64,000 nt of DNA from the NCBI RefSeq assembly GCF_007753095.1, contig NZ_CP036348.1:3038001-3102000 (forward strand), in the 5' to 3' direction. Shown in pieces: positions 20,750 to 42,716 of this stretch. The notes beneath the pieces were generated by a model that saw nothing but the letters and a program-made list of their open reading frames with translations, was not told where the DNA came from and made no database searches. The stretch is from Rosistilla carotiformis. GTDB lineage: Bacteria; Planctomycetota; Planctomycetia; Pirellulales; Pirellulaceae. How positions within the stretch are numbered: position 1 is the stretch's first letter; each line of letters opens with the position of its first letter. The translations under genes and the position numbers were made by a program.

Positions 20750-22255
<1,506 letters not shown>

Positions 22256-22408
22256 GTGACGGAAACCACGACGCGGGGCCCAGCGATCCGGCACGTTCGT
22301 CAAGCGAGCCGCCAGGTTTTCCCGCGCCGTGGGGGAGGTTTCTCGATCGATGCGGGGTGCGAAATCCATCCCGCTGTCGCGCCGGCATGCAGCGCTTTTT
22401 GGTCCGGG

Positions 22409-23725
22409 TTAGAAATCGTCGATCCCGGCGGACATGTCTTCCAGTTTCGACATCGCTTGCGTTTGGATTTGGCGAATGCGTTCACGCGATAACGACATTG
22501 CGGAACTGACTTGCGTGAGCGTCCTCGGCGTGCCGTCTTTGATGCCGAAACGCATTTCAACGATGCGTCGCTCTCGCGGGTCCAGACGGCTCAACATCGA
22601 CAGCACCAACGGCCGCATGTTCTGTTGTTCCTCGATGAACGCCGGGTCGGACGATTCCGAAAGCTCGGGAAGCGTCTCGGCAAGCGACAATTGATCGTCG
22701 TCGGACCGGTCGTGAATGGAAACGGTTTCCCGTAAGGCGCCCAAAGCGCGGGCTGTCGATTCGACCGACATTCCTGCGTCGCGCGCGATCTCATGTGGAT
22801 CGGGATCGCGAAGGTGGCGACGGTAAAAATTCTCCTGCGTTTGGCGGACCTGTTTGACGCCTGAAAAGGCGGCTTGCGGGACACGGACCAATCTCCCTTG
22901 CACGGCGACCGCACGGCTGATCGCTTGGCGAATCCACCACGTCGCGTAGGTGCTGAAACGGAATCCGCGATCGGGATCAAATTTGTCGATCGCTTTCATC
23001 AGCACCGCGTTCCCCTCTTGAACGAGATCTAAAAATCCGAGTCCTCGGCCACGATACTGTTTGGCAATCGGAATCACCAAACGCAGATGATGGCTAACAA
23101 ATTCCTGCTTCAGTCGCGTCCAGTGGGCACTCACATCGTCGGCCCGTTTTGCGACCCGCGCCATCTGTCGCGATGGGAAGCGTGAATCGTCGGCGTCAAA
23201 CAGCGACTCCAAGATCGAGACGCGAATTGGCAGGTCATTCAAGAGATTGCGGACCGCGTGACGTCGACGGCGCAAGCGCCCCAGGGCGGCCTGACGTTTG
23301 ACTTGAGAGCAACGTCGGGTGGCGAGTTGCTTGCGATCGTTGTTATTGTCTTCGTCGATCCGCTGCAAAGAATCAATGACATGAGGGATCGCCTTGCGTA
23401 GGAACTGAATCCTTGGGAGGTCGTTGGGGGCGACTTCGATCACGGTGTCGATACGGACATCGCGGCAGACGACGGTCGTTAACCATTCGATGATTCCAGG
23501 CAAAATGCCCGGATGCATCAGCAAGCAGTGGCGGTACACAACGCCCGTCTTTTTGATCCGCCGCGTGATCGCGATCTCTTCGTCGTTGGTCAGCAGACGG
23601 GTCTTCGAAATGTCCGCAAAGTATTCTTCCAAGCCTTCGGTGTCGTTGCTCGATTGCAAAGCGTTGTGCGAACCCGTCTGACTGACCCAGCGATTGTTTT
23701 GTGATTTGTTGGCGAAGCGGACCAT
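22409..23725 (-). CDS. Sigma-70 family RNA polymerase sigma factor (RpoD/RpoS-like, group 2-3)
   Basis: A 438-residue sigma factor. Region 1.2 is around residues 30-56 (GLEEYFADISKTRLLTNDEE), region 2 around 210-275 (DLVQEGNAVLMKAIDKFDP and FSTYATWWIRQAI), region 3 around 285-345, and region 4 around 375-430 with an HTH (LTQVSSAMSLSRERIRQIQT). A non-conserved, Arg-rich segment of about 120 residues lies between regions 1.2 and 2. I start at ATG 23725 because it has a GGAGGAGAA ribosome-binding site; the frame continues open upstream. It lies 154 bases downstream of the HtrA gene on the same strand, so it may be expressed with the HtrA regulatory block. Its promoter class is unknown. It differs from a housekeeping RpoD in lacking a long region 1.1. 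Confidence 0.9.
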   Translation of the reverse strand: MVRFANKSQNNRWVSQTGSHNALQSSNDTEGLEEYFADISKTRLLTNDEEIAITRRIKKTGVVYRHCLLMHPGILPGIIEWLTTVVCRDVRIDTVIEVAPNDLPRIQFLRKAIPHVIDSLQRIDEDNNNDRKQLATRRCSQVKRQAALGRLRRRRHAVRNLLNDLPIRVSILESLFDADDSRFPSRQMARVAKRADDVSAHWTRLKQEFVSHHLRLVIPIAKQYRGRGLGFLDLVQEGNAVLMKAIDKFDPDRGFRFSTYATWWIRQAISRAVAVQGRLVRVPQAAFSGVKQVRQTQENFYRRHLRDPDPHEIARDAGMSVESTARALGALRETVSIHDRSDDDQLSLAETLPELSESSDPAFIEEQQNMRPLVLSMLSRLDPRERRIVEMRFGIKDGTPRTLTQVSSAMSLSRERIRQIQTQAMSKLEDMSAGIDDF

Positions 23726-23879
23726 GGGAGTTCTCCTCCGGGAGTTGTGAGCATTCGAGATCGGAATGCGGGGATGAGTTTTTGAGCGGAAAGTCGCAAC
23801 GGTGGGTTGGGGAGCCCGAACCGTTGCGACATCGATCCAGCCGACGCCCCTCAACGGAGCGTGTTGGCGGAGGGCACGA

Positions 23880-25400
23880 TTACGTGCCCGATTTCAAGAT
23901 CACGTACCGCGAGCCTTGATCTGTTTTGACCAACAACAGCAAGGGATTCGACAAATCGTGATCCTTGGTCAACGCTTCGAATTGGTCGACCGAAGCGACG
24001 CTTTTGCGTTCGACTTGCGTGATCACGTTGCCCTCTTGCAATCCCGCCCGGTCGGCAGCACTGCCAGGGTTCACGTTGGTGATCACCACGCCAGCGATGT
24101 CTTTGACGCCCAGCTTTTTCGCCAAGTCTTCGGTCAGATTGCCAACTTCCATGCCCAGCGATTCAACTTTCGATACTTCGGCGGTTTGACCGCTGTGGGC
24201 CAGACCCGCTTCGGGCTGGACTTCGCAAACCGCTTCGATCGTCAAAGGCTTTCCGTCACGCATGATCTCGATCGATTGCTTCGCACCGGGATCGGATTGT
24301 TCAACGACGTTCTGCAGACCGCGTGGATCGTGAACTTCGCGACCACTGAACGATAGGATCACATCGCCTTGCTTTAGTCCCGCCTTCTCGGCTGGCGAAC
24401 CGGGCACGACTTCGGTCACCAACACGCCGTGATTCGATTGCACGCCGAAGGTGGAAGCCAAATCGTGGCTGACCTTTTGAATCCCAACACCCAACATCGC
24501 ACGTCGGACGACTCCGTCTTTGATCAATTGATCGCTGACCCATTTCGCTTCATCGATGGGGATCGCGAACCCGACACCATTGTTGCCTCCGCTGCGCGAA
24601 GAGATCGCTGTGTTAATGCCGATCACTTCACCGGCCAGATTCACCAAGGGCCCACCACTGTTTCCAGGGTTGATCGCCGCATCGGTTTGCAGGAAATTTT
24701 CCCGCGCCGTAATCCCAATCCCACGACTCTTGGCACTGATGATGCCGGCGGTGACAGTACCTTCGAGACCGAAGGGTTGTCCCAGGGCCAGCACCCAATC
24801 GCCGATCTCCATCCGGTCGCTGTCTCCCATGCGGGCGGCAACCAAGTCGGTGGCTCCATCGATCTTCAGTACCGCCAGATCCGTTTTAGGATCGGTCTTT
24901 ACTTCCGAAGCCTTAAATTCGCGTCCGTCCGCCAATTTGACCATGACGTTGGTGGCGTCGGCGACGACGTGGTTGTTGGTCAGGATTAAACCCGACGCAT
25001 CGATGACCACTCCCGATCCGATGCCGGTTCGCGTGGTCGATTCCGCGGAAGGTTTGAAGAATCGATGCATCTCGGGTTGCCCCTTGAACATCTCACCAAA
25101 CGGTGTGCCTTCGCCGAAGAAACGTTTCATCATTTCATCGTCCATCGGTTGGCCCTGGCGCGGTGCGGTGGGGCCGGCGACTTCGGTCTCCGAGGTGATC
25201 GTGACCACCGACGGTGCGACGACGCGCGCCGTTTCGCGGAACGCTTCGCTCAACGAATTGGCGTTGGCCACCGCGGCGCTAACGCGTGGCGGATTCGATT
25301 CGGCTTGCAGGTGAACGGCCGCTGTCGAACCGATCATCGCCGCGATCGCGAAGCCCACGATCCAAGGGGCTTTGCGTTTATTCAGTTTTGTAAGTCTCAT
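23880..25400 (-). CDS. degP: HtrA/DegP family periplasmic serine protease with two PDZ domains
   Basis: Periplasmic protease-chaperone of 506 residues that degrades misfolded envelope proteins. The N-terminus has one hydrophobic segment (APWIVGFAIAAMIGSTAAVH), acting as signal peptide or membrane anchor. The S1C trypsin-like triad is His144 in LTNNHVV, Asp174 in TDLAVLKI and Ser248 in GNSGGPLV. Two PDZ domains follow (LGVGIQKVSHDLASTF and later VKDIAGVVITNVNPGSAADR). A flexible Q/P/M-rich linker at residues 75-120 resembles the LA loop of DegP. It is 407 bases from the upstream sigma-54 activator on the same strand, and a strong sigma-54 promoter match precedes it, indicating regulated expression by the adjacent two-component system. 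Confidence 0.94.
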   Translation of the reverse strand: MRLTKLNKRKAPWIVGFAIAAMIGSTAAVHLQAESNPPRVSAAVANANSLSEAFRETARVVAPSVVTITSETEVAGPTAPRQGQPMDDEMMKRFFGEGTPFGEMFKGQPEMHRFFKPSAESTTRTGIGSGVVIDASGLILTNNHVVADATNVMVKLADGREFKASEVKTDPKTDLAVLKIDGATDLVAARMGDSDRMEIGDWVLALGQPFGLEGTVTAGIISAKSRGIGITARENFLQTDAAINPGNSGGPLVNLAGEVIGINTAISSRSGGNNGVGFAIPIDEAKWVSDQLIKDGVVRRAMLGVGIQKVSHDLASTFGVQSNHGVLVTEVVPGSPAEKAGLKQGDVILSFSGREVHDPRGLQNVVEQSDPGAKQSIEIMRDGKPLTIEAVCEVQPEAGLAHSGQTAEVSKVESLGMEVGNLTEDLAKKLGVKDIAGVVITNVNPGSAADRAGLQEGNVITQVERKSVASVDQFEALTKDHDLSNPLLLLVKTDQGSRYVILKSGT

Positions 25401-25521
25401 ATCTTGTGCTCCCAGATTTCAACCACTCGTGGTGGTTTTGACAAACGGAAATTCCACGTTGTCGTGGTGCGGTTCGAGATCACCACTCCCTGAGCGATGC
25501 GAACTGCTGAGGGGATGCTTA

Positions 25522-25537
25522 AGCAGCGATCGTGCCA
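25522..25537 (-). promoter_or_regulatory. Predicted sigma-54 (-24/-12) promoter of the HtrA gene
   Basis: Minus-strand TGGCACGATCGCTGCT matches the consensus TGGCACG-N4-TTGCW at every defined position but one, with the invariant GG and GC exactly 10 bases apart. A start site near 25512 would give a leader of about 110 bases before the HtrA ATG at 25400. The upstream gene encodes a sigma-54-dependent activator, which strengthens the assignment. Confidence 0.75.
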
Positions 25538-25652
25538 ATCCATCGTTTGGGCACCGACTCGGAGTGGACAAGCGGTGGCACTGAACATGGAAAAACAAGC
25601 GTTTTTCAGCACCAAAAGAATTTCGAATGTTTCGCGTTCGACCCGATTTCCG

Positions 25653-25668
25653 ACGCGTTGCAACGCGT
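25653..25668. promoter_or_regulatory. 16-bp perfect palindrome, candidate enhancer site for the NtrC-type regulator
   Basis: ACGCGTTGCAACGCGT is a perfect palindrome centred about 125 bases upstream of the predicted -24 element, a typical distance for upstream activator sites of sigma-54 activators. Binding by the neighbouring regulator is inference; a nearby CGCGTTCG could be a half site. Confidence 0.5.
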
Positions 25669-25675
25669 TTGCCAC

Positions 25676-25708
25676 GGGGCATTCTGCCCCGCTGGGGCAG
25701 AATGCCCC
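25676..25708 (-). terminator. Perfect 15-bp inverted repeat downstream of the NtrC-type gene
   Basis: GGGGCATTCTGCCCC and its exact complement flank a 3-base GCT loop, about 100 bases after the stop of the minus-strand regulator. There is no T run, so it may be a factor-independent pause/terminator lacking a tail or an mRNA-stabilising hairpin. It also lies next to the candidate enhancer. Confidence 0.45.
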
Positions 25709-25807
25709 GATCGTGAACGGGGCGCAGAGGGCCCAAGATTTCCGCGTCGGCGAAGCGGCAAACGCTTCCTCATCGGTCCCCTTGGACGCGGCACGGGGAG
25801 CGCTTGG

Positions 25808-27190
25808 CTAAGGTGTTTCGCGGAGCTTGCGATAGAGCGTTTTGCGGTCGAAGCCAAGGATCTTCGCAGCGGTCGTCTTGTTGCCGTCGACAGCTTCCAA
25901 GACGTGTTGGATGTAGCGGGCTTCGACAGCTTCCATGGGCAATAGTTCGGCCGGGTCTTCGCCGCCGATCAAGACTTGTTTTCCGCGATGGCTGCGAATC
26001 TTTTCGGGCAGGTCTTCGGGCGCGATGCGATCGTAACGGGTCAGTGCGACGGCGCGTTGAATCACGTTGCGGAGTTCACGAACGTTGCCGGGCCAGTTGT
26101 AATCGACAAGCTTTTGCGCCGCAGTTTCGGAGAGTCCTCCGATCGGCCGGTTGGCTTGTTGAGCGAATTGGTCGATGAAGTGTTGCGCCAGGATCAGCAC
26201 GTCGGTGCCGCGACTGCGCAGCGGCGGCATTTCGATCTGGATGACGTTGATGCGATAGAACAGATCCTCGCGGAAGGTGCCCGCTTCGACCATCGCTTCG
26301 AGATCCCGATTGGTCGCGGTCAGCAACCGGACATCAAACGCGCGTTCGGCAGCACCGCCAACGGGGCGCGCGGATCCCTGTTCAAGCGCCCGCAATAACT
26401 TCGCCTGCATCGACAGCGGCATCTCTCCCAATTCGTCCAGGAAGATCGTGCCTCCATCGGCTTGGAAGAAGAGCCCGGGGCGATCGGTCGACGCATCGGT
26501 GAACGCGCCTTTGACGTGTCCAAACAATTCGCTTTCGAGCAGCGTTTCGGGGAGCGCGGCGCAATTGAGTGCGACAAACGCGTGTTGCGATCGGCGACTC
26601 AAACGGTGGATCGCTTGGGCCGCCATCTCCTTTCCCGATCCGCTCTCGCCGGTGATCAGCACCGAAGCTTCGGAGTCGGCGATCTGCCGCACTTGATCGG
26701 CTAAGCGAAGCATCACGGGACTTTCGCCCAGGATCTGATCCAGGCTGCCGCGTCGCGCCGCGGCGACCTGCTGGCTGAGCAAACGAATCTGTTGTTGCAT
26801 GTCGCGGCGTTCGACGGCGCGACCCAACGTTAACGCCAACAGTTCGAAATCCAGGGGTTTGGTGACGAAGTCGTAGGCGCCGGCGCGGATCGCGCTGATC
26901 GCCGTTTCCATGCTGCCAAACGCCGTCATCACAACCACCGGAACATCGCCGCGGTTGTTGACGATGCGTTGGCAGAGATCGATTCCGTTGAGACCTTTCA
27001 TCTGCATATCGGTCAGCACGACATCGAATTCGCTGCGTTCGAACGTGGCGAAGGCTTCCAACGGGTCGGTAAACCAATCGACGACAAAGCCCAGCGGTTC
27101 GATCGCCGCTTTGGTCAATTCGCACATGCTCTGTTGATCGTCGACGACCAGCACACGTGGCAACGGTTTTGTTGGAGAGTTCTCAGACAT
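25808..27190 (-). CDS. NtrC-family sigma-54-dependent response regulator
   Basis: A 460-residue activator in three domains. The receiver domain (residues 12-125) has the acidic pair DD17-18 and phosphoacceptor Asp61 in DVVLTDMQM. The AAA+ domain has Walker A GESGSGKE (181-188), the loop GAFTDA (228-233; GAFTGA in most members) and Walker B GTIFLDELGE. The C-terminal Fis-type HTH is AAKILGFDRKTLYRKLRE. The start at 27190 gives a normal receiver N-terminus. The histidine kinase ends 40 bases upstream, so the two genes form an operon. It is expected to activate sigma-54 promoters on phosphorylation; the best nearby candidate is the promoter before HtrA. The D in the sigma-54-contact loop is a known-type variation and does not by itself predict loss of activity. 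Confidence 0.94.
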   Translation of the reverse strand: MSENSPTKPLPRVLVVDDQQSMCELTKAAIEPLGFVVDWFTDPLEAFATFERSEFDVVLTDMQMKGLNGIDLCQRIVNNRGDVPVVVMTAFGSMETAISAIRAGAYDFVTKPLDFELLALTLGRAVERRDMQQQIRLLSQQVAAARRGSLDQILGESPVMLRLADQVRQIADSEASVLITGESGSGKEMAAQAIHRLSRRSQHAFVALNCAALPETLLESELFGHVKGAFTDASTDRPGLFFQADGGTIFLDELGEMPLSMQAKLLRALEQGSARPVGGAAERAFDVRLLTATNRDLEAMVEAGTFREDLFYRINVIQIEMPPLRSRGTDVLILAQHFIDQFAQQANRPIGGLSETAAQKLVDYNWPGNVRELRNVIQRAVALTRYDRIAPEDLPEKIRSHRGKQVLIGGEDPAELLPMEAVEARYIQHVLEAVDGNKTTAAKILGFDRKTLYRKLRETP

Positions 27191-27230
27191 GGGGGCCGAT
27201 GATTTGTGGGATGCGAGGAAAGGGGCCGAT

Positions 27231-28658
27231 TCAGGTCGTGGGGGCGGTCGGGGCGACGGGCAATTCGATCCGAAACGTTGTTTGGACGCCCGGTTCGCTT
27301 TCGACATCGATCCGCCCACCATGCTCTTGAACGATGCGGGTGACGATCGACAGCCCCAGTCCGGTTCCTTCACCGACAGGTTTGGTTGTATAGAACGGCT
27401 CAAACACTTGCTGGATGTCGTCGTTGTCGATCCCATGCCCCGCGTCGCTCACTTCGATCACCGCGCGCTCATCGTGACGCGCGACGCGGACGGTCACACG
27501 CCCGCCGTCGTCGCTGGCATCGATCGCGTTGACAATCAAATTGGTCAACACTTGTTGGATCTGATTCGCGTCGACGTGCCCCAAGACGTTGTCGTCGGCC
27601 AGGCATTCCAAGCTCACGCCGCGGCGTTGGGCAAGGGGCTTCAGCAGCACGATTGTCTGTTCGGCGATCTGGTTCAAGGGACATACGATCCGCCGAGGCG
27701 TATCGCGACGGGCAAAATCGAGCAGCTGGCGGATGATCGTTGTCATCCGTTTGGATTCCTTGATGATCTCGCCGGCACTGGTTTCGATCTGTGATGGATC
27801 GGCGGTTGTGGATTGGATCAATTGAGCGCGGCCTTGGATCACGTTTAATGGAGTGCCCAGTTCGTGTGCGATTCCCGAGGCCAATCGGCCGACGGTTCGC
27901 AGCCGGTCTTCGTGGCGCAGTTGCTCGATCGCGGCGACCTTGGCCGCCGTCTCGGCGTCGACTGCGGCCTGCGTTTCGGTCAACCGTTCGCACATCGCAT
28001 TGATGCCATCGGCCAGTTCTCCCAATTCATCGCGGGCGTGTCCCTGCAGTGGTCCCGAGAGATCGCCGTCGGCGATCCTCGACACTTTGCTGGTCAACCG
28101 CTGCAGCGGACTGGCGAGGAAATAGATGCTGGCGACGCCGACGGCCAGCGTCGAAGAAACCATCACGGCGGCGGCGAGTATCCAAATCGCACGCATCGAA
28201 TCGCGGCGGGCTTGGGTTAATTGATCCATCGTCTGCACAAACTCCAACCCCCCTGGCCGCGGTTGGTCGGTTTCGACCGGAATGTAGCTGAACAGCTGCA
28301 ACTGACCTTCGGCATCCCGGATCGGAACACTTTGCAGTTGCTGGCGGCGAAGCGATTGAATCTCGACGGCCACCCGCGGACCACCGCGATGGGACTGTTC
28401 GTCGAACCACACCCACCGCGAATGGAGCTCGATCGCAACCGGCGCAATGCCGGACATCTCGGTGCAGATCTTATGACGTTCCGACGCCGGACGAGCCGCG
28501 AGCGTGCCGGTCGCTTGGTCGGCGAAGCGTCCGGCCACTTCCTCGGCGCGCGCCAAGAAGACCGCTTCCTGCTGCTGCAGCAGAAACCACGACAGCATCC
28601 AGGTCACCGTCGCGATCACCGACAGCGAGACCAACATCATTTTGAACGCAATTTTCAT
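27231..28658 (-). CDS. Membrane sensor histidine kinase with HAMP domain
   Basis: A 475-residue sensor kinase. Two transmembrane segments (residues about 8-28 and 158-182) flank a periplasmic domain of roughly 130 residues that lacks a recognisable PAS or Cache signature. A HAMP domain follows (ASPLQRLTSKVSRIADGDLS). The HisKA box is GRLASGIAHELGTPLNVIQG with phosphorylated His265. The ATPase domain shows the N box LTNLIVNAIDAS, the G1 box VSDAGHGID and the GEGTGLGLSIV G2 box. The ATG at 28658 is used because it places TM1 at a normal distance. It pairs with the sigma-54-dependent regulator 40 bases downstream. The periplasmic signal is unknown; control of an HtrA protease makes envelope stress plausible. 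Confidence 0.93.
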   Translation of the reverse strand: MKIAFKMMLVSLSVIATVTWMLSWFLLQQQEAVFLARAEEVAGRFADQATGTLAARPASERHKICTEMSGIAPVAIELHSRWVWFDEQSHRGGPRVAVEIQSLRRQQLQSVPIRDAEGQLQLFSYIPVETDQPRPGGLEFVQTMDQLTQARRDSMRAIWILAAAVMVSSTLAVGVASIYFLASPLQRLTSKVSRIADGDLSGPLQGHARDELGELADGINAMCERLTETQAAVDAETAAKVAAIEQLRHEDRLRTVGRLASGIAHELGTPLNVIQGRAQLIQSTTADPSQIETSAGEIIKESKRMTTIIRQLLDFARRDTPRRIVCPLNQIAEQTIVLLKPLAQRRGVSLECLADDNVLGHVDANQIQQVLTNLIVNAIDASDDGGRVTVRVARHDERAVIEVSDAGHGIDNDDIQQVFEPFYTTKPVGEGTGLGLSIVTRIVQEHGGRIDVESEPGVQTTFRIELPVAPTAPTT

Positions 28659-29328
28659 GCAGTGGTGTACCAGTGGGATCTGTGTGAACGCATGAAGAAG
28701 ATCCGGCAAAATCTGAAAGTGACGTGCCGCAGTTTAAAAAATAAGCCATAAATTGGAGGTCGCCAAACCCGTCGCGAAGCGTGCTTGCGTCAGCCGTCCC
28801 CCCAAGCCGCGCGGCGGAGATCGCTGGCTCGGGGAATCGGATGCCATCGCTGCAGGGGCAACGGCATCGATGTCGAGGAACCGAGGTCGCCAGGGCGTCC
28901 ATCGACAAACCTTTGCCCGCGGTTTGGCTAAGTCCTATGATAAGACGCATCGCCTTGGCAAAACCAGCGGCGCTGGAGGCGGTTGACGACGCAAGGCACT
29001 CTGGATGCCCCCCTGAACCTCGCAATCGGAGCAGCTTCGCGGACCGCCATCGCAGCCCTGGGATCGAGTCATTGACGGGGCTCGGGGCTGTACAAGTGCC
29101 GCAAAACGAGGTATATTAGAGATCGGTTGGGTCGTGAAATGCTTGGCTAATGAAAGCAAATTTCGATCGTCAATCTGCTTCATATCCCAACGTCGGTGGC
29201 CAGTGTTTATCGTGCAATGAACGCTGGTGTTTTTTTGTATTTGTGTTGGTTGTCTAACCAAGGGCTCGGTCGTCGAGCGCTGGATGTTGGACGACTGGCC
29301 GAAGAGTTCGCGTCCGAGGAGACGATTG
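28659..29328. other. Intergenic region and long leader of the RRM gene
   Basis: 670 bases between divergent genes without a convincing reading frame. A TATATT hexamer at 29112-29117 is a possible -10 element but has no good -35. Such a start would give the RRM mRNA a leader of about 200 bases, including the small hairpin TTGGTTGTCTAACCAA near 29248 and a GAGGAGA ribosome-binding site at 29316-29322. Confidence 0.4.
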
Positions 29329-29628
29329 GTGGGTAAGAAACTGTACTGCGGGAACTTGGTCTTTGGTGCGACGAGTTCCGACTTGGAGCAGTTGTTTGGG
29401 CAGTTTGGTGTCGTCGCGAGTGCGCAGGTGATCAGCGATCGCGAGACCGGACGCAGCAAGGGGTTTGGGTTCGTCGAAATGTCCAGCGACGAAGAAGCCG
29501 CGGCGGCAATCGATGGACTCAATGAACAGGACTACGACGGCCGTGCCTTGGTCGTGAACGAAGCCCGCCCACGCGAAGATCGTGGTGGTGGCGGTGGTTA
29601 TCGTGGCGGCGGCGGCGGGCGCTACTAA
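29329..29628 (+). CDS. Glycine-rich RRM RNA-binding protein
   Basis: Small single-strand RNA-binding protein of 99 residues with one RRM domain. RNP2 is LYCGNL (residues 5-10) and RNP1 is KGFGFVEM (44-51). The tail is Gly-rich (RGGGGGYRGGGGGRY). Bacterial members, common in cyanobacteria and planctomycetes, are often induced by cold. The GTG at 29329 follows GAGGAGA by six bases and starts directly at the domain; the frame is open further upstream but that part (MFFCICVGCL) does not look coding. The long AT-richer leader is compatible with cold-shock-type post-transcriptional control, which is inference. It is followed by a small gene and rnpB on the same strand. Confidence 0.92.
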   Translation: MGKKLYCGNLVFGATSSDLEQLFGQFGVVASAQVISDRETGRSKGFGFVEMSSDEEAAAAIDGLNEQDYDGRALVVNEARPREDRGGGGGYRGGGGGRY

Positions 29629-36650: not shown

Positions 36651-39600
36651 TCACGCTTGCGGTTGGGATTTGAAGAGCGCGACGATGTCTTCGAGGATCA
36701 GGTACAGACAGGGGATCAGGACCAGGACGATCGCCGTCGAGAAGAGGATGCCAAAGCCGAGCGAGATCGCCATCGGGACGATGTATTGAGCTTGCAGTGA
36801 TTTCTCGAAGATCAATGGCAACAGGCCGCCGAAGGTGGTCAGAGTGGTCAAGAGGATCGGCCGGAAGCGACGCAGGCCCGCTTGCGAGATCGCTTCGAAC
36901 GCGGTGCAGTCCTGCTTGCGGCGGCGGTTGGCGTAGTCGACCATGATCAGCGAATCGTTGATCACGACGCCCGACAGCGCGATCACCCCCATCAGGCTGA
37001 CGAGCGAGATGTCGTAGCCTAACCAAATGTGTCCCAGGACCGCGCCGACGATTCCGAACGGAATCGCAACGAGTACGATCAGCGGTTGGACGTAGTCGCG
37101 GAACGCAATCGCCAACAGCGAATAGATCACGGCCAGGGCGAGGCCAAAGTAGCCCCACAGAGTCGATGTCGCGCGACGCATCTCGGCATCGCTCCCTTCG
37201 AAACTCCACGTGATGCCCGGGTAATCGCGGCGCAGTTCGGGAAGGGCTTCGGATTGGATCGCGGTGATCACTTGGGTGATCGCACGCTTTGGTTCGACGT
37301 CCATGCTAACACTGATCGCGCGGCGGCCATCGCGTCGATTGATGCGTGAAAAGGAAACATCCTTCTTCAGCTCGGCAACATCCAGCAGCGGCACCTCGGC
37401 GCCGCTGGGAGTGCGGATCACAAGGTCTTCCAGATGGTGAAGGTCTTCGCGTTGCTCTTCCGGCAATTTGACTCGCACCTCCACCTCGTTGGTACCTCGC
37501 AGCAACCGCAGGGCCAGCGAACCGAAGAATGCACCGCGTAGCTGTTCCCCCAGCGATTCATCGGTCAGCCCCAGAGCTCGCCCTTCGGGACGCAGGTGGA
37601 AGTCGTATTGGGCTTTGCCGCGGTTGTAGTTGTGGTTGACATCGCGAACGTACGAATACTGTTCGACTCGGCTCACAAACGCTTCGGAAGCTTTCTCGAG
37701 CACCTCGATATCGGTGTGACTGAGCGCGATACTGATGTCCCGTCGATGGCCGCCGGGGCCGCGTTCGGCTTCGAAGGTGACCTGGTCGACCCCCGGCAGA
37801 TCGCCGATCGAATCACGCCACAATTCGATGACTTCGTTGGCGGTCATGTCGCGTTGGTCGGGAGGCAACATCACGATTTCAACGTCGATAAAGTCTTGGC
37901 CGCGAACGTTCGTTTTGATTCCTTCGGCCACTTCATACAAATTGTGTTCTTCGAACATTCGCAAGCTGGCTTCGGTGACCACGCGTGCGATCTCGGCCGA
38001 TTGATCCTGCGTCGTTCCCACCGGCATCCGCACTCCCGCTTCGATCTCGTCGGCGGAGACCTCAGGCATCAGGATCATTCCCATGTGCGCACTCGTTGCG
38101 TAGCCGCCGACCAACACAAACAAAGCCACCGCGATGCAAGCGGTGACGTAGCGGAAACGCAGGCACAGTCGCAGCACCGGCCCGTAAAGGATCTCGACCA
38201 CGCGGTTGAAGTTGCGACCAAAGGCTTGTTGCCCGCGATGCAGGAACTGCGTCAACCATATTTTGCGTCGCACCTTGGGCGTGTGGGCCAAGTGAGCGGG
38301 GAGGATGAAAAGCGATTCGACAAGCGACAGTGCCAGGACGATGATGACCACCACCGGCAACGGGCTCCAAAACTTTCCAGTCTCGCCGGGAATGAACATC
38401 AGTGGCACAAACGCGACGATGTTGGTCAAGATGCTGAAGACCACCGGCGCGGCGACTTCTCGTGTTCCGTGAATCGCGGCGCGTTCGAGACTGCGGGACG
38501 TCTGCCGTTCTTCGTAGACGTTTTCGCCGACGACCACCGCGTCATCGACGACGATGCCCAGCACCACCAAAAATCCAAACAGCGAGATCATGTTGATGCT
38601 GATGCCGGCCAGAGGCAGGAACAGCAGGCCGCCGATAAACGAGACGACCATCCCCATCATGACCCAGAACGCCAATCGGAACTCCAGGAACAATGCCAGG
38701 ATCACCAGCACGATGACCACCGCCTGCATCGCGTTTTCGGTCACCAGTTCCAAGCGACGACGAAACTCTTCCGCATTGTTGCGGTCGATCCGCCACTGCA
38801 CGCCCGGCGGCAGCACGCTTTCGAATTCGTTCATGGTCGTTTCGACCACGTTGGCGATGTCGATGGGTGACTGCGAGCCGACGCGGAAAATGTCGAGTTC
38901 CACCGAGGGCGTTTGGCTGAACTGCGAGTGGAAGCCCACCTCTTCGAAGCCATCGCGAATCACCGCCAGATCGCCCAGCGTGACCGAAGGGCCGGAGCGG
39001 CCGGAGACGATTTCGATGTTGGCGAATTCGTCGGCCCATTGCTTGCGAGCTTTCACGCGCAACAGGATTTCCCCGGCGCCGGTTTGAACCGAACCGGCGG
39101 CCACATCCTGGCTGGACGTGCGGATGATCTCGGCCACTTCGGGCAGGGTGAGTCCGTATTCGCGAAGCTGTTGGCGAGGGATTTCGATGTGCGTCACATA
39201 TTGCGGGACGCGTCGCAGTTCGACTTGCGTAATTTCTTCGGTCGACAGCAGTGTGTCGCGCAGCTGTTCGGCGAGTTTGCGGAGTGCCCAGACGTCGATC
39301 GCTCCGTAGATCGACACCTGCATGACTTCGCGTTGGTCGGTTTGAAGTCGGACCTCGGGTTGTTCGATCTGGTCGGGGAAGGTGCGGATCCGGCTGACCG
39401 CTTGGTCGATATCCTGGAACGCCTTCATCCGGTTCTGCCCGGCGACCAGTTCGATCAAGACCGTGCCGCGCCCCTCGCGGGCTTCGCTGTCGATCCGTTG
39501 GATCCCATCGACGCCGCGGACCGCCCCTTCGATGGGACGCAAGATTCCCTGCTCGACTTCCGCCGGCGACGCGCCGGGGTACCCGACTTCGATCTCCACG

Positions 39601-39800
39601 ATATCCAGCTGCGATGGCGGGAAGACTTCTTTTTGCATCGAAATCGCCGACCAGATGCCACCTCCCAACAGGATGAACATCAGCAGATTGGCGGCGATCG
39701 AATTGCGAGCCATCCACGCGATCGGACCGCTCGTTTCCGAGGTCTCCGCAACGATCGCTTGGTCGTCGTTCGATTCGATCTCGTCGGCAGGCTGGCTCAC
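36651..39800 (-). CDS. RND efflux transporter permease (AcrB/HAE1-type)
   Basis: Inner-membrane proton-driven pump subunit, 1,049 residues, the usual size for RND permeases. TM1 is followed by the large periplasmic porter domain ([20 protein letters not shown]). TM4 carries the two conserved acidic residues in [15 protein letters not shown]. The second half repeats the topology, including [20 protein letters not shown] and [18 protein letters not shown], and ends with a short cytoplasmic tail. It is the last gene of a three-gene operon and overlaps the adaptor stop by four bases. Substrate class cannot be determined; the architecture fits multidrug or hydrophobic-compound export. Confidence 0.95.
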
Positions 39801-41077
39801 TCGCTCGCCTCCGCGGACTCGTTGTCGTCGGATTCGGTGGCGGTTTCGGATTCTACGTCGACAGTTTCTGCGTCTTCCGCTTTTGCGGGCGCGTCGACTT
39901 TTCGAAGCTTCACGCCGTTGGCGACCGTCGCGAGCGTCGTGGTCACAACTTCATCTCCGTCTTCCAAACCGCTGCTGATGTAGGCATATTCGGGATCGCG
40001 GAACTCGATCACCGTATCGCGGATCTCCAGTTCCCCCTCCTTCATCACCCAGACCGTATCGCCATCGTGCACATATTCACGGTGCAGACGTACAACATCG
40101 TCGATCTCTTTGCCAGCAATTTCTACTTTCAGCAGCGAATCGAGAATCAACGGCGGCACATCGGACTCCAGCCCCAATGGATCTTCGACAACGACCAAGA
40201 CACGGGCCAGCCGAGTTTCTTCGTCCAGCGAACCGATCATCCGCTCGACGCGCCCCACGCGCTGCACCTCGTGTCCCCAAGCATCGGGATTGTGCAAAGT
40301 GGCTTCGGAACCGTGTCGTTCATCGGATGAGAACCGCACCCAACGCAGATTTCGAATCGGGACCGCTGCCATCACCCAATACTGATCGATACCAACCAGC
40401 TGTCCCAGTTCATCCCCCGGTTCCACCTGGGAACCAACGTTGACGGATCGGTCGAGAATCTGAGCGTCGAAGGGGGCGAAGATCTCGGTGCGATCCAAAT
40501 CCAAGATAGCGCGTTCGACAGCCGCCTTGGCGGCGCTCAACCTCGATAGCAGCGACGCCGATTGGGGTTCTCGCAACACAAGGGCGGCGTTGACCTTGCC
40601 AATCGAATCTCCCAAGAGGTCTAGCTCTTGCTTGGCCAGTTTCTTGCGTCCGGACTCGATTTCCCAATCCGCTTCCACCTGTTCCAATTCACTTTTGCGA
40701 ATCGAAACGGTGTTCTCAAAGTCGGCCGGATCGATCTGCATCAGCAGGTCGCCTTTGCGAACCATGCCTCCGGGAGCGAAGGAGGGGGCAAGTTCAAGCA
40801 CTTGGCCGCGAATTCGAGGACTGAGTACGATGTCTTGAGCCGGACGTACGGTTCCTAAAACCACCAGGTTGGGCGAATAGGTGGCACGCTCCACAACGAT
40901 CGTTTCCACCAGCGCCGCCGACTTGCGTTTGGCGTTGATCTGCTTTGCTTCGGGTTCGGTCTGGTAAATCCACCACACCCCTGCCGCAGAGCCCGCGAGG
41001 ATCGCGAGGCACAGAAACATATTGGCAAGGAGACTGATCCAGCTACGGCGTGGTCTGGAATGGCCAGCGTCACTCAT
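39797..41077 (-). CDS. RND efflux periplasmic adaptor subunit (HlyD/AcrA-like)
   Basis: Membrane-fusion protein of 426 residues linking the permease to the outer membrane factor. One N-terminal membrane anchor ([20 protein letters not shown]) precedes a lipoyl/barrel-sandwich domain ([20 protein letters not shown] and [19 protein letters not shown]) split by an alpha-helical hairpin, then a beta-barrel and a membrane-proximal part. The C-terminal 30 residues are strongly acidic ([15 protein letters not shown]), which is unusual for adaptors. It overlaps the permease ATG by four bases and the outer membrane factor by eight. Confidence 0.93.
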
Positions 41078-42716
41078 TTAAATCGAATTCTTTGGCGGGC
41101 TTCACCGTGCCACTTCCGGCTGCTGGCGAAGGCAATTCTGTTGGGGCGGGAGATACGTCAACTGGCATCCCGGCAGGAGGGGGCAACAATTCGCCCGCGT
41201 CGCTATCTCTCTCTGAGGTTAATTGCGGGGCGTCCAAGAGCAACCCATTGTTTTCAATCGGACGCGTGTCGAAGGCGCCCGCCAGAGCCAAATACAAACC
41301 GATTCGGATCTGGATAAGATCCAATCTGGCAGACAGGATCGAACGTTGCAAGCTTTGACGCGACTGAACCGTGCTGAGAACGTCCAAGTAACTGGTATTA
41401 CCGGTAATAAAGTACTGCAGCAGCTGTTGAGAGGCGAGTTCCGCACTCTTGAACTGAGCTTCCAGCAATTGGATTCGCTCGATTTGCCGACGCTCCAACG
41501 CCAATGCATCTTCCACTTCCTGCAGCGCGATCAGGGTCGTTTGACGATATTCGCTGAACCGCTGCCACACGACAGCCCGCGTTCTGGCGACTTCGGCACG
41601 TCGTTGTCCGCCATCGATGATCGGACCGATCAACTGCCCGCCGAGCGAAAGGAACCAATCTCTGAATAGCGTTTCGGGATTTTGGGCCGAATTGACAATC
41701 GAAGCTCCCAGGTTCAGCCGCGGGTATTGATCGCTGACGGCAGCTGCCACATCTCGGTCGGCTGCGGCCAGGGCAAAGTAGGCGGCGCGGACATCGGGTC
41801 GGCGATTCAGCAGGTCGGCTGGCAATCCGGCGAATGGCATCGGAGGAAGTTCGGGCAATGTGTCGCCGGGTTCGTACCGGGCGATTTGTGGAGGTTGTCC
41901 AGTGAGCACGGCCAGTTGGTGTTCGAGCACTTCGATACCCGCCCGCACGACAACCATCTGCTCCAACGTCGCTTGCACCAACTGCTGCTGACGCAACACA
42001 TTGGGGCCCCCTTCGCCGACTTCCGCATACCGCAACTCGACCGCCTTCAGCCCCTCCCGGTTTGTCTCAACCTGTTCATCCAGAAGTTTCAGCTGAGCGT
42101 AGGACTCGATCAGCGAGTACCAAGTGCGAGCGACTTCCGCAGAGAGCGATAGGGCAACGGCTTGATAGTCCGACCGAGTTGCTGAGGTTCGGAAACGTTC
42201 GGCGTCGACACGCGAACGAATCTGTCCCCACAAATCGACTTGGTAACTCGCATCCAGGCCCCAGGTCATCTGAGAACTATCGCGCCCCGGCCCAAAGGTA
42301 CGCGAAGACTCGGAGAATCCATTCACGTCCCAACACCAATCCGACGCTGCGATCCGCGTCACCGCTTGAGCGGCTCGCAGGCGGCTGAGTGCGACGGCGA
42401 GATCAAAGTTCTGGCCCAGGGCCAAATTGACTTCGCGGTCCAAGCCGTCATCATCGAACGTCGTCCACCAACGCTCCGGTGCAATCGTTTCGCCACTCTC
42501 GGACATCGGCGGCAGCGAACTGGCCGCAAAAGTAGGCATCGGCCCTTTGCTAGCGCAGCCAGCCAGCACCGCGAGCGTCAGCATCAGCAGCAAATGCATC
42601 ACCACTGTCGCAAACGAAGTAGCGCTCCCACGGCGATAGTCCGCGGCGTCGGCAGCCTTCACTGCGCAATTCGACCGATAGTTGGGACGCCGGTGGTCTG
42701 CTATGGGATTCGCCAT
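41070..42716 (-). CDS. Efflux outer membrane factor lipoprotein (TolC/NodT family)
   Basis: Outer membrane channel component, about 548 residues (509 if ATG 42599 is used). The lipobox LAVLAGC is preceded by a hydrophobic stretch starting at MHLLLMLTL, so a lipid anchor is likely; the first 39 residues before it (polar, Arg-rich) may not be translated. The mature part has the two OEP repeats of the NodT family: WDVNGFSESSRTFGPG-type barrel strands, long heptad helices (YAQLKLLDEQVETNREGL and AVELRYAEVGEGG), a QQLVQATLEQMVVVRAGIEV helix, and RRPDVRAAYFALAAADRDVA (the family's most conserved block). First gene of the efflux operon; no neighbouring regulator is evident. Confidence 0.93.
   Translation of the reverse strand: MANPIADHRRPNYRSNCAVKAADAADYRRGSATSFATVVMHLLLMLTLAVLAGCASKGPMPTFAASSLPPMSESGETIAPERWWTTFDDDGLDREVNLALGQNFDLAVALSRLRAAQAVTRIAASDWCWDVNGFSESSRTFGPGRDSSQMTWGLDASYQVDLWGQIRSRVDAERFRTSATRSDYQAVALSLSAEVARTWYSLIESYAQLKLLDEQVETNREGLKAVELRYAEVGEGGPNVLRQQQLVQATLEQMVVVRAGIEVLEHQLAVLTGQPPQIARYEPGDTLPELPPMPFAGLPADLLNRRPDVRAAYFALAAADRDVAAAVSDQYPRLNLGASIVNSAQNPETLFRDWFLSLGGQLIGPIIDGGQRRAEVARTRAVVWQRFSEYRQTTLIALQEVEDALALERRQIERIQLLEAQFKSAELASQQLLQYFITGNTSYLDVLSTVQSRQSLQRSILSARLDLIQIRIGLYLALAGAFDTRPIENNGLLLDAPQLTSERDSDAGELLPPPAGMPVDVSPAPTELPSPAAGSGTVKPAKEFDLNE

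Follow-up and report, generated by a model that had tools for sequence, protein, structure and literature searches.

A probable sigma-54 two-component circuit with its own enhancer before htrA in Rosistilla carotiformis

We analysed a 64,000-nucleotide stretch of Rosistilla carotiformis DNA (contig NZ_CP036348.1, positions 3,038,001 to 3,102,000; the window), which sits in a single-contig genome of 7.44 Mb labelled G000 in our comparisons. Its minus strand encodes a sensor histidine kinase, an NtrC-type response regulator, the protease HtrA and a sigma-70 factor. These genes probably belong to a sigma-54 two-component circuit with a dedicated output, made up of an envelope kinase, the regulator, two dyads upstream of htrA, htrA itself and read-through into the sigma gene. 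The circuit is supported by gene content, promoter architecture, recurring targets and the near-unique genomic location of the dyads; its signal, the phosphotransfer, direct binding by the regulator and co-transcription of the sigma gene are parts that we infer.

In the proposed mechanism, the membrane kinase would detect a condition of the envelope and phosphorylate the NtrC-type regulator, which would bind two GGGGCA-N3-TGCCCC dyads upstream of the htrA promoter. With the DNA looped, the regulator would drive formation of the open complex by sigma-54 polymerase and HtrA would increase, while read-through past htrA would raise the divergent sigma-70 factor and with it a second layer of genes. 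The kinase-regulator pair very probably switches on htrA, and perhaps the circuit also raises the sigma factor that follows.

The four-gene locus

The initial annotation had described a minus-strand series of histidine kinase, NtrC-type activator, HtrA and sigma-70 factor, and all four genes are present where it placed them. The regulator starts exactly 40 bases past the kinase stop codon, as had been noted.

27231..28658, minus strand: sensor histidine kinase (Pfam HAMP, HisKA and HATPase_c)
25808..27190, minus strand: NtrC-type response regulator (Pfam Response_reg, Sigma54_activat and HTH_8, all over cut-off)
23880..25400, minus strand: htrA, Do-family serine protease with two PDZ domains (TIGR02037; Pfam PDZ_2 twice)
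22409..23722, minus strand: divergent RpoD-like sigma-70 factor, the presumed second output (Pfam; adjoins htrA also in the congeners G001 and G002)

By its Pfam domains, a receiver, the AAA+ Sigma54_activat domain and a Fis-type helix-turn-helix, the regulator is an NtrC-type sigma-54 activator. Its sigma-54 contact loop reads GAFTDA, versus the canonical GAFTGA, and GAFTDA or GSFTDA is found across 15 alignment rows. GAFTDA is among the loop variants expected to keep activity, according to the portion of PMC4641369 consulted. The genome holds a single copy of rpoN. HtrA scores 473.6 bits against TIGR02037 (cut-off 416.2), which places it in the Do family, and its translation contains the His, Asp and Ser motifs TNNHVV, KTDLAVL and GNSGGP; it stays below the NCBIfam equivalog cut-offs for DegP and DegQ (314.5 of 720 and 307.7 of 756 bits).

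The htrA promoter

The region between the regulator gene and htrA contains the following elements.

25694..25708, no strand assigned: distal dyad GGGGCA-N3-TGCCCC, predicted regulator site (exact palindrome)
25676..25690, no strand assigned: proximal dyad GGGGCA-N3-TGCCCC, predicted regulator site (exact palindrome, 18 bp from the distal one)
25522..25537, minus strand: sigma-54 box TGGCACGATCGCTGCT before htrA (TGGCAC-GATCG-CTGC at 25523-25537; consensus match, conserved in G001 and G002)
25401..25511, minus strand: predicted htrA 5' leader with two similar hairpins in three congeners (alignment, folds)

A near-perfect sigma-54 promoter had been claimed before htrA. Scored against the sigma-54 consensus, the box is there with one mismatch and is conserved in all three congeners, but it is weak when taken alone: the window holds eight one-mismatch sites against 4.8 expected, and 12 of 100 shuffles reach as many. 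The box by itself is thus unremarkable, and the case for it comes from conservation. In the alignment of the three htrA upstream regions it is kept amid mostly diverged sequence, and its correctly spaced GG at -24 and GC at -12, together with this conservation, make it a predicted sigma-54 promoter. The transcription start, a predicted position, lies 111 bases from the htrA ATG. Another sigma-54-like site at 25660-25674, not conserved in G001 or G002, was set aside as a chance match.

The same three-congener alignment brought the dyads to light, which the initial annotation did not contain. GGGGCATTCTGCCCC and GGGGCAGAATGCCCC lie 18 bp apart, some 138 and 156 bp ahead of the htrA box, and could serve the NtrC-type regulator as an enhancer. 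Only three exact dyads occur in the 7.4 Mb of G000, two of them at htrA. We took the third, at 1527375, as a chance occurrence; it falls within a transketolase-like frame (by reading of the translation), and the box near it is weak (score 18.9, with GGC replacing TGC at -12). Among the one-mismatch dyads of G000, no box scoring at least 18.5 was in range at any of the 12 that were fetched (5 others were not fetched). The single exact dyad of the G001 genome also sits at htrA. G002 has its htrA and sigma genes some 870 kb away from those of the kinase and regulator; despite this separation, the sole exact dyad in its 7.5 Mb is found at htrA. In both G001 and G002 one of the two dyads is exact, and its partner differs at two or three positions. 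To judge by sequence, the promoter anatomy is of the enhancer-dependent sigma-54 type.

The leader folds have z-scores of -1.9, -1.9 and -1.3 and are not significant by energy. By eye, the leader hairpins show some paired changes between the congeners. They are a possible RNA control element; an Rfam scan of 22000-29500 at the gathering threshold gave no match. In several relatives' promoters, A-tract/T-tract blocks (e.g. GAAAAC...GTTTTC) lie between dyad and box, possibly as a DNA-bending site.

Recurrence of the regulator, its neighbours and its promoter

Orthologs of the regulator were defined by matches at E <= 1e-135, other matches lying near 1e-114 to 1e-101. Of the 296 genomes of the order, 45 have such a match, the window's own included, and five further genomes from a 40-genome sample brought the set to 50 genomes with 51 loci. 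Around each kinase-regulator pair a stretch of sequence was fetched, from 3.4 to 22 kb long and in most cases near 17 kb. HtrA is encoded inside 28 of the 51, where about two would be expected by chance (our arithmetic, from 18 HtrA-like matches per genome), so that the linkage expected from the initial annotation holds in related genomes. At least four arrangements with HtrA occur (HK-RR-HtrA, with HK the kinase and RR the regulator; HtrA-HK-RR; divergent; convergent), and at six loci moxR lies directly downstream of the regulator. Gene order that varies in this way between lineages favours a functional tie over mere inherited order. When contigs were searched with a profile of the regulator alignment, identity was at most 47% among the best 80 matches.

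A locus was scored as carrying the promoter when a dyad with at most one mismatch and a sigma-54 box scoring at least 17.9 of 22 lay within 900 bp upstream of a target. This was so at 30 of the 51 loci: 20 with htrA, one with htrA and a divergent M50 protease gene, six with moxR and three with an ECF (extracytoplasmic function) sigma gene. Such promoters were also found elsewhere in the genome, before htrA of G002, moxR of G101, G116 and G086, an ECF gene of G056 and a receiver-htrA pair of G214; linked or not, 36 of the 50 genomes have one. The distance from dyad to box ranges from 54 to 245 bp. Sigma-54 two-component control of htrA, as originally proposed, is therefore supported, since dyad and box precede htrA in many genomes even when it is unlinked.

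In a permutation control, which scored a dyad-box pair anywhere in the locus with a box of at least 18.5, the real palindrome was found at 29 of 51 loci, whereas 40 permuted palindromes reached a mean of 0.2 and a maximum of 2 loci. As the motif was derived from three congeners, of which two loci with the dyad are among the 51, nearly all other loci constitute a test. The pairing of dyads recurs as well: in 20 of 39 promoters, many of them from related genomes, a second copy with at most three mismatches lies exactly 18 bp from the best one, against a background of 0.00045 per position.

A composite pattern of dyad, 54-84 bases and box was then used to scan 396 genomes of the order and gave 20 matches in 20 genomes, while a control pattern gave none. 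Behind these matches stand htrA (11, in G214 preceded by a receiver gene), moxR (6) and an M50 protease gene (3; G232, G259 and G282). Three matches are new: htrA in G747, htrA followed by the kinase gene at a contig end in G766, and the M50 gene in G259. The window's own htrA promoter falls outside the scanned spacing. Of the 20 genomes, the 18 covered by the regulator search all carry it. The other two are G747 and G766, and in an 18-kb stretch of G747 neither kinase nor regulator was seen. G282 carries the promoter at htrA, moxR and the M50 protease gene in separate places; in G014 it precedes htrA and also moxR, where the box is weaker (19.2). Composite sites lacking a clear target occur in G140 (before a phosphate-binding-protein-like frame), in G130 and once in G282. 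At the moxR loci of G000, G001, G002 and G144 neither dyad nor box was present in the first 1700 bases scanned.

Exact dyads occur in 35 of the 47 regulator-carrying genomes scanned (of 50), and a box is in range at 18 of 27 loci around them (one place counts twice among the 18, and another is the weak transketolase site). Among 42 genomes with no regulator match at threshold, a set that may include more diverged orthologs, 12 have an exact dyad; a box was in range at one of 16 dyad loci fetched from such genomes, and it reads GGC at -12. In genus g39, the five genomes with the regulator carry moxR behind dyad and box, and the three without a match to it at the threshold have neither an exact dyad nor a moxR match at 1e-100. 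Exact GGGGCA-N3-TGCCCC sites number 37 in G259 and 31 in G106; many share a single spelling, and they are likely a dispersed repeat and not regulator sites.

The same regulator and enhancer before htrA, moxR, M50 protease or ECF sigma genes across the order suggest that the core job of the circuit is envelope protein quality control, and the recurring targets suggest that some lineages also activate secondary sigma factors. We lean slightly towards a still broader view, in which this is an order-wide, probably planctomycete, envelope-stress system with a single sigma-54 regulator and a fixed enhancer code, whose outputs are swapped among periplasmic HtrA, the ATPase MoxR, intramembrane M50 proteases and ECF or divergent RpoD-like sigma factors, a sigma-54 to sigma-70 cascade replacing Cpx/sigma-E logic.

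Weighing the proposed circuit

Several findings weigh against the circuit as drawn here. Fourteen of the 50 ortholog genomes lack such a promoter at our thresholds, although several hold two-mismatch versions, and related genomes are not independent of each other. For the composite scan, the spacing range was picked from promoters already seen, so that 17 of its 20 matches were to be expected. At nine of the 27 exact-dyad loci from genomes with the regulator, no box is in range; an exact dyad is thus not sufficient. In a sample of the phylum, 21 of 392 genomes gave regulator matches, six of them from the window's family; the 15 beyond the family yielded 20 loci, none with HtrA nearby, and a dyad-box pair occurs at four of these 20, each time with two mismatches in the dyad. 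The enhancer-target code is thus shown for this order alone. The other adverse findings concern the sigma gene: the linked sigma factors are long-branched and share no common clade; in G180 and G159 it is the htrA dyad that follows the sigma gene, which has a one-mismatch dyad before it and no good box between; and the gap between htrA and the sigma gene is strongly folded.

The sigma gene starts with an ATG at 23722, preceded by GGAGGA. Regions 1.2, 2 and 4 of the protein exceed the Pfam cut-offs and region 3 reaches 24.4 of 25.3 bits, while it stays below the NCBIfam cut-off of every RpoD model among the 25 models listed (best, 254 of 555 bits) and below that of MzaA, the MZA anti-phage sigma factor (239.5 of 800 bits). 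In a tree it occupies a divergent branch, joined solely by one paralog of the genus. A sigma paralog, L147 (G000 1363980-1365272), which occurs also in G001 and G002, is 45% identical over nearly the whole length.

Sigma-70 genes are present within 12 of the 51 ortholog loci, from at least five groups of genera, and those of other lineages align over most of their length at 25-31% identity. We considered the linked factors as one orthologous family, which the tree does not support; several branches are too long to place. The gene follows htrA in G000, G001, G002 and G235 and precedes it in G008, G180 and G159. In G230 it is divergent from htrA around a shared dyad, which lies about 333 bp from the sigma gene's own sigma-54-like box, and in G008 it likewise has its own such box and an upstream dyad with two mismatches. 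An RpoD-like gene comes after a dyad-preceded ECF gene in G026, G103, G108 and G097 of family f3. In G295 a sigma-70 gene stands beside a second kinase-regulator copy. This genome has two regulator copies (L097 and L100), each with an inverted kinase gene alongside, one near htrA and the other near the sigma-70 gene, as though outputs were split between duplicates.

In the window, htrA and the sigma gene are separated by a structured gap.

23723..23879, minus strand: htrA-sigma intergenic region of 157 bases with a conserved GTCGCAACGG...CCGTTGCGAC stem (alignment, folds)

Its z-scores are -4.1, -6.5 and -7.2 in the three congeners, and the conserved hairpins include a 10-bp stem; no T run follows the main stem. 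Co-transcription across the gap is plausible, but the structure could lower or buffer read-through. The second output through the following sigma factor, which the initial annotation had proposed, accordingly stands on weaker ground than control of htrA: the 12 loci and the association of htrA and sigma gene in G002 speak for it, and the absence of a single clade and the structured gap against it.

One alternative takes up these points. Here, the circuit would govern htrA (or moxR) alone, and the sigma-70 gene would be an independent neighbour with its own promoter and no second layer. A 157-base gap with strong conserved hairpins suits such a gene, as do sigma factors that form no one clade and a sigma gene that precedes the htrA dyad in G180 and G159. 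We regard this as an unlikely though serious alternative, given that sigma-70 genes recur in at least five groups of genera, that htrA and the sigma gene stay together in G002 and keep their order in G235, that in f3 the dyad precedes the ECF gene and then the RpoD-like one, and that the sigma genes of G230 and G008 have boxes and upstream dyads of their own.

A second alternative concerns the signal. In the proposed circuit the kinase senses periplasmic stress, as we infer. The model of the kinase is of modest confidence (mean pLDDT 75.7, pTM 0.40, 20 sequences). Its N-terminus is modelled as H2-54, E78-84, E109-114, E120-128, E136-143 and H145-196, i.e. a small alpha/beta (helix-strand) domain between two long helices, which is presumed to be periplasmic. 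The 50 rows listed by a fold search with this model are kinase cores and give no class for the sensor domain. The closest solved structure by sequence to the catalytic part is the ZraS cytoplasmic domain 9jfj, and ZraS/ZraR are tied to zinc and heavy metals in the consulted part of PMC12316311. This kinship, and the poor conservation of the inter-helix region among 20 orthologs, would suit a metal, a metabolite or another signal that is not envelope protein damage, with HtrA as one of several effects. Against this, the recurrent targets are proteases, MoxR and sigma factors, and we hold such a signal to be doubtful.

That the dyads are bound by some other regulator, be it a repressor or a different sigma-54 activator, while the linked pair acts elsewhere, is improbable: the 20 loci outside the order do carry the pair, and none of them has a box combined with a dyad of one mismatch or fewer, and the dyads are regulator sites by prediction, but the composite promoters, which were found independently of the regulator, sit in genomes known to carry it in 18 of 20 cases, and in g39 the exact dyad and the moxR match are missing where the regulator has no match at the threshold, whereas the genomes with the regulator have moxR behind dyad and box.

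Other features of the window

A small frame at 29227-29628 (plus strand), divergent from the kinase gene, resembles an RRM RNA-binding protein when its translation is read by eye. Genes for an RND efflux permease and an outer-membrane channel lie at 36651-42716 (minus strand), and these proteins imply an outer membrane. The eight window proteins scanned beyond the four-gene locus also include one DUF1501 protein, of a family common in planctomycetes, a weak taxonomic hint.

Comparison with known systems

In other bacteria, HtrA/DegP proteases are induced by envelope stress through Cpx or sigma-E, which control degP via promoters of the sigma-70 family; the htrA gene described here has a candidate enhancer and a predicted sigma-54 promoter instead. 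The Rrp2-RpoN-RpoS cascade of Borrelia, in which a sigma-54 activator raises a sigma-70-family factor, resembles the proposed circuit in its logic. ZraSR/ZraP, an envelope-stress system, is likewise a sigma-54 two-component system, and ZraS is the solved kinase nearest by sequence. The NCBIfam scores remain below the ZraR and ZraS cut-offs (386 of 760 and 174 of 479 bits), and the promoters described here stand before htrA, moxR, M50 protease and sigma genes, in a comparison that did not include zraP. RavA is a MoxR-type protein. A Vibrio study connects RavA with Zra2 and Cpx (PMC10848872, part consulted).

Our search of titles and abstracts of open-licence papers returned no account of such a circuit. 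A 2025 survey of sigma-54 regulons includes planctomycetes and, in the portion consulted, mentions ZraR-like regulators there; its main text does not contain HtrA or MoxR (PMC12316311). In Rhodopirellula baltica an htrA is induced by cold, and rpoN is unregulated on heat shock and down-regulated by high salinity (PMC2754498, part consulted; its genes were not mapped to our ortholog set). The Desulfovibrio vulgaris proteins DVU1419 and DVU3381 are two-component sigma-54 activators annotated with envelope stress in the consulted part of PMC4641369, the main text of which does not mention htrA, degP or protease.

The analysis yields a concrete prediction, comprising a regulator, its binding site, the promoter spacing and a small target list. 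The list groups MoxR and an M50 membrane protease with HtrA in a single regulon, which suggests an envelope-stress role for both, and from the sigma factors that recur as neighbours a second tier of regulation is predicted. By analogy, the closest published logic is that of QseEF (GlrKR) of Enterobacteriaceae. This NtrC-type two-component system differs in its enhancer, TGTN12ACA versus GGGGCA-N3-TGCCCC here (TGTN12ACA itself was not searched for), in its need for the lipoprotein QseG and in having no HtrA target in the part of PMC6075780 consulted; the regulator of the window scores 363 of 763 bits against GlrR, below the NCBIfam cut-off. What the two systems would share is the activation of sigma-54 promoters from upstream sites, which in QseEF serves glmY and the gene of an envelope-stress sigma factor, rpoE (PMC6075780, same part).

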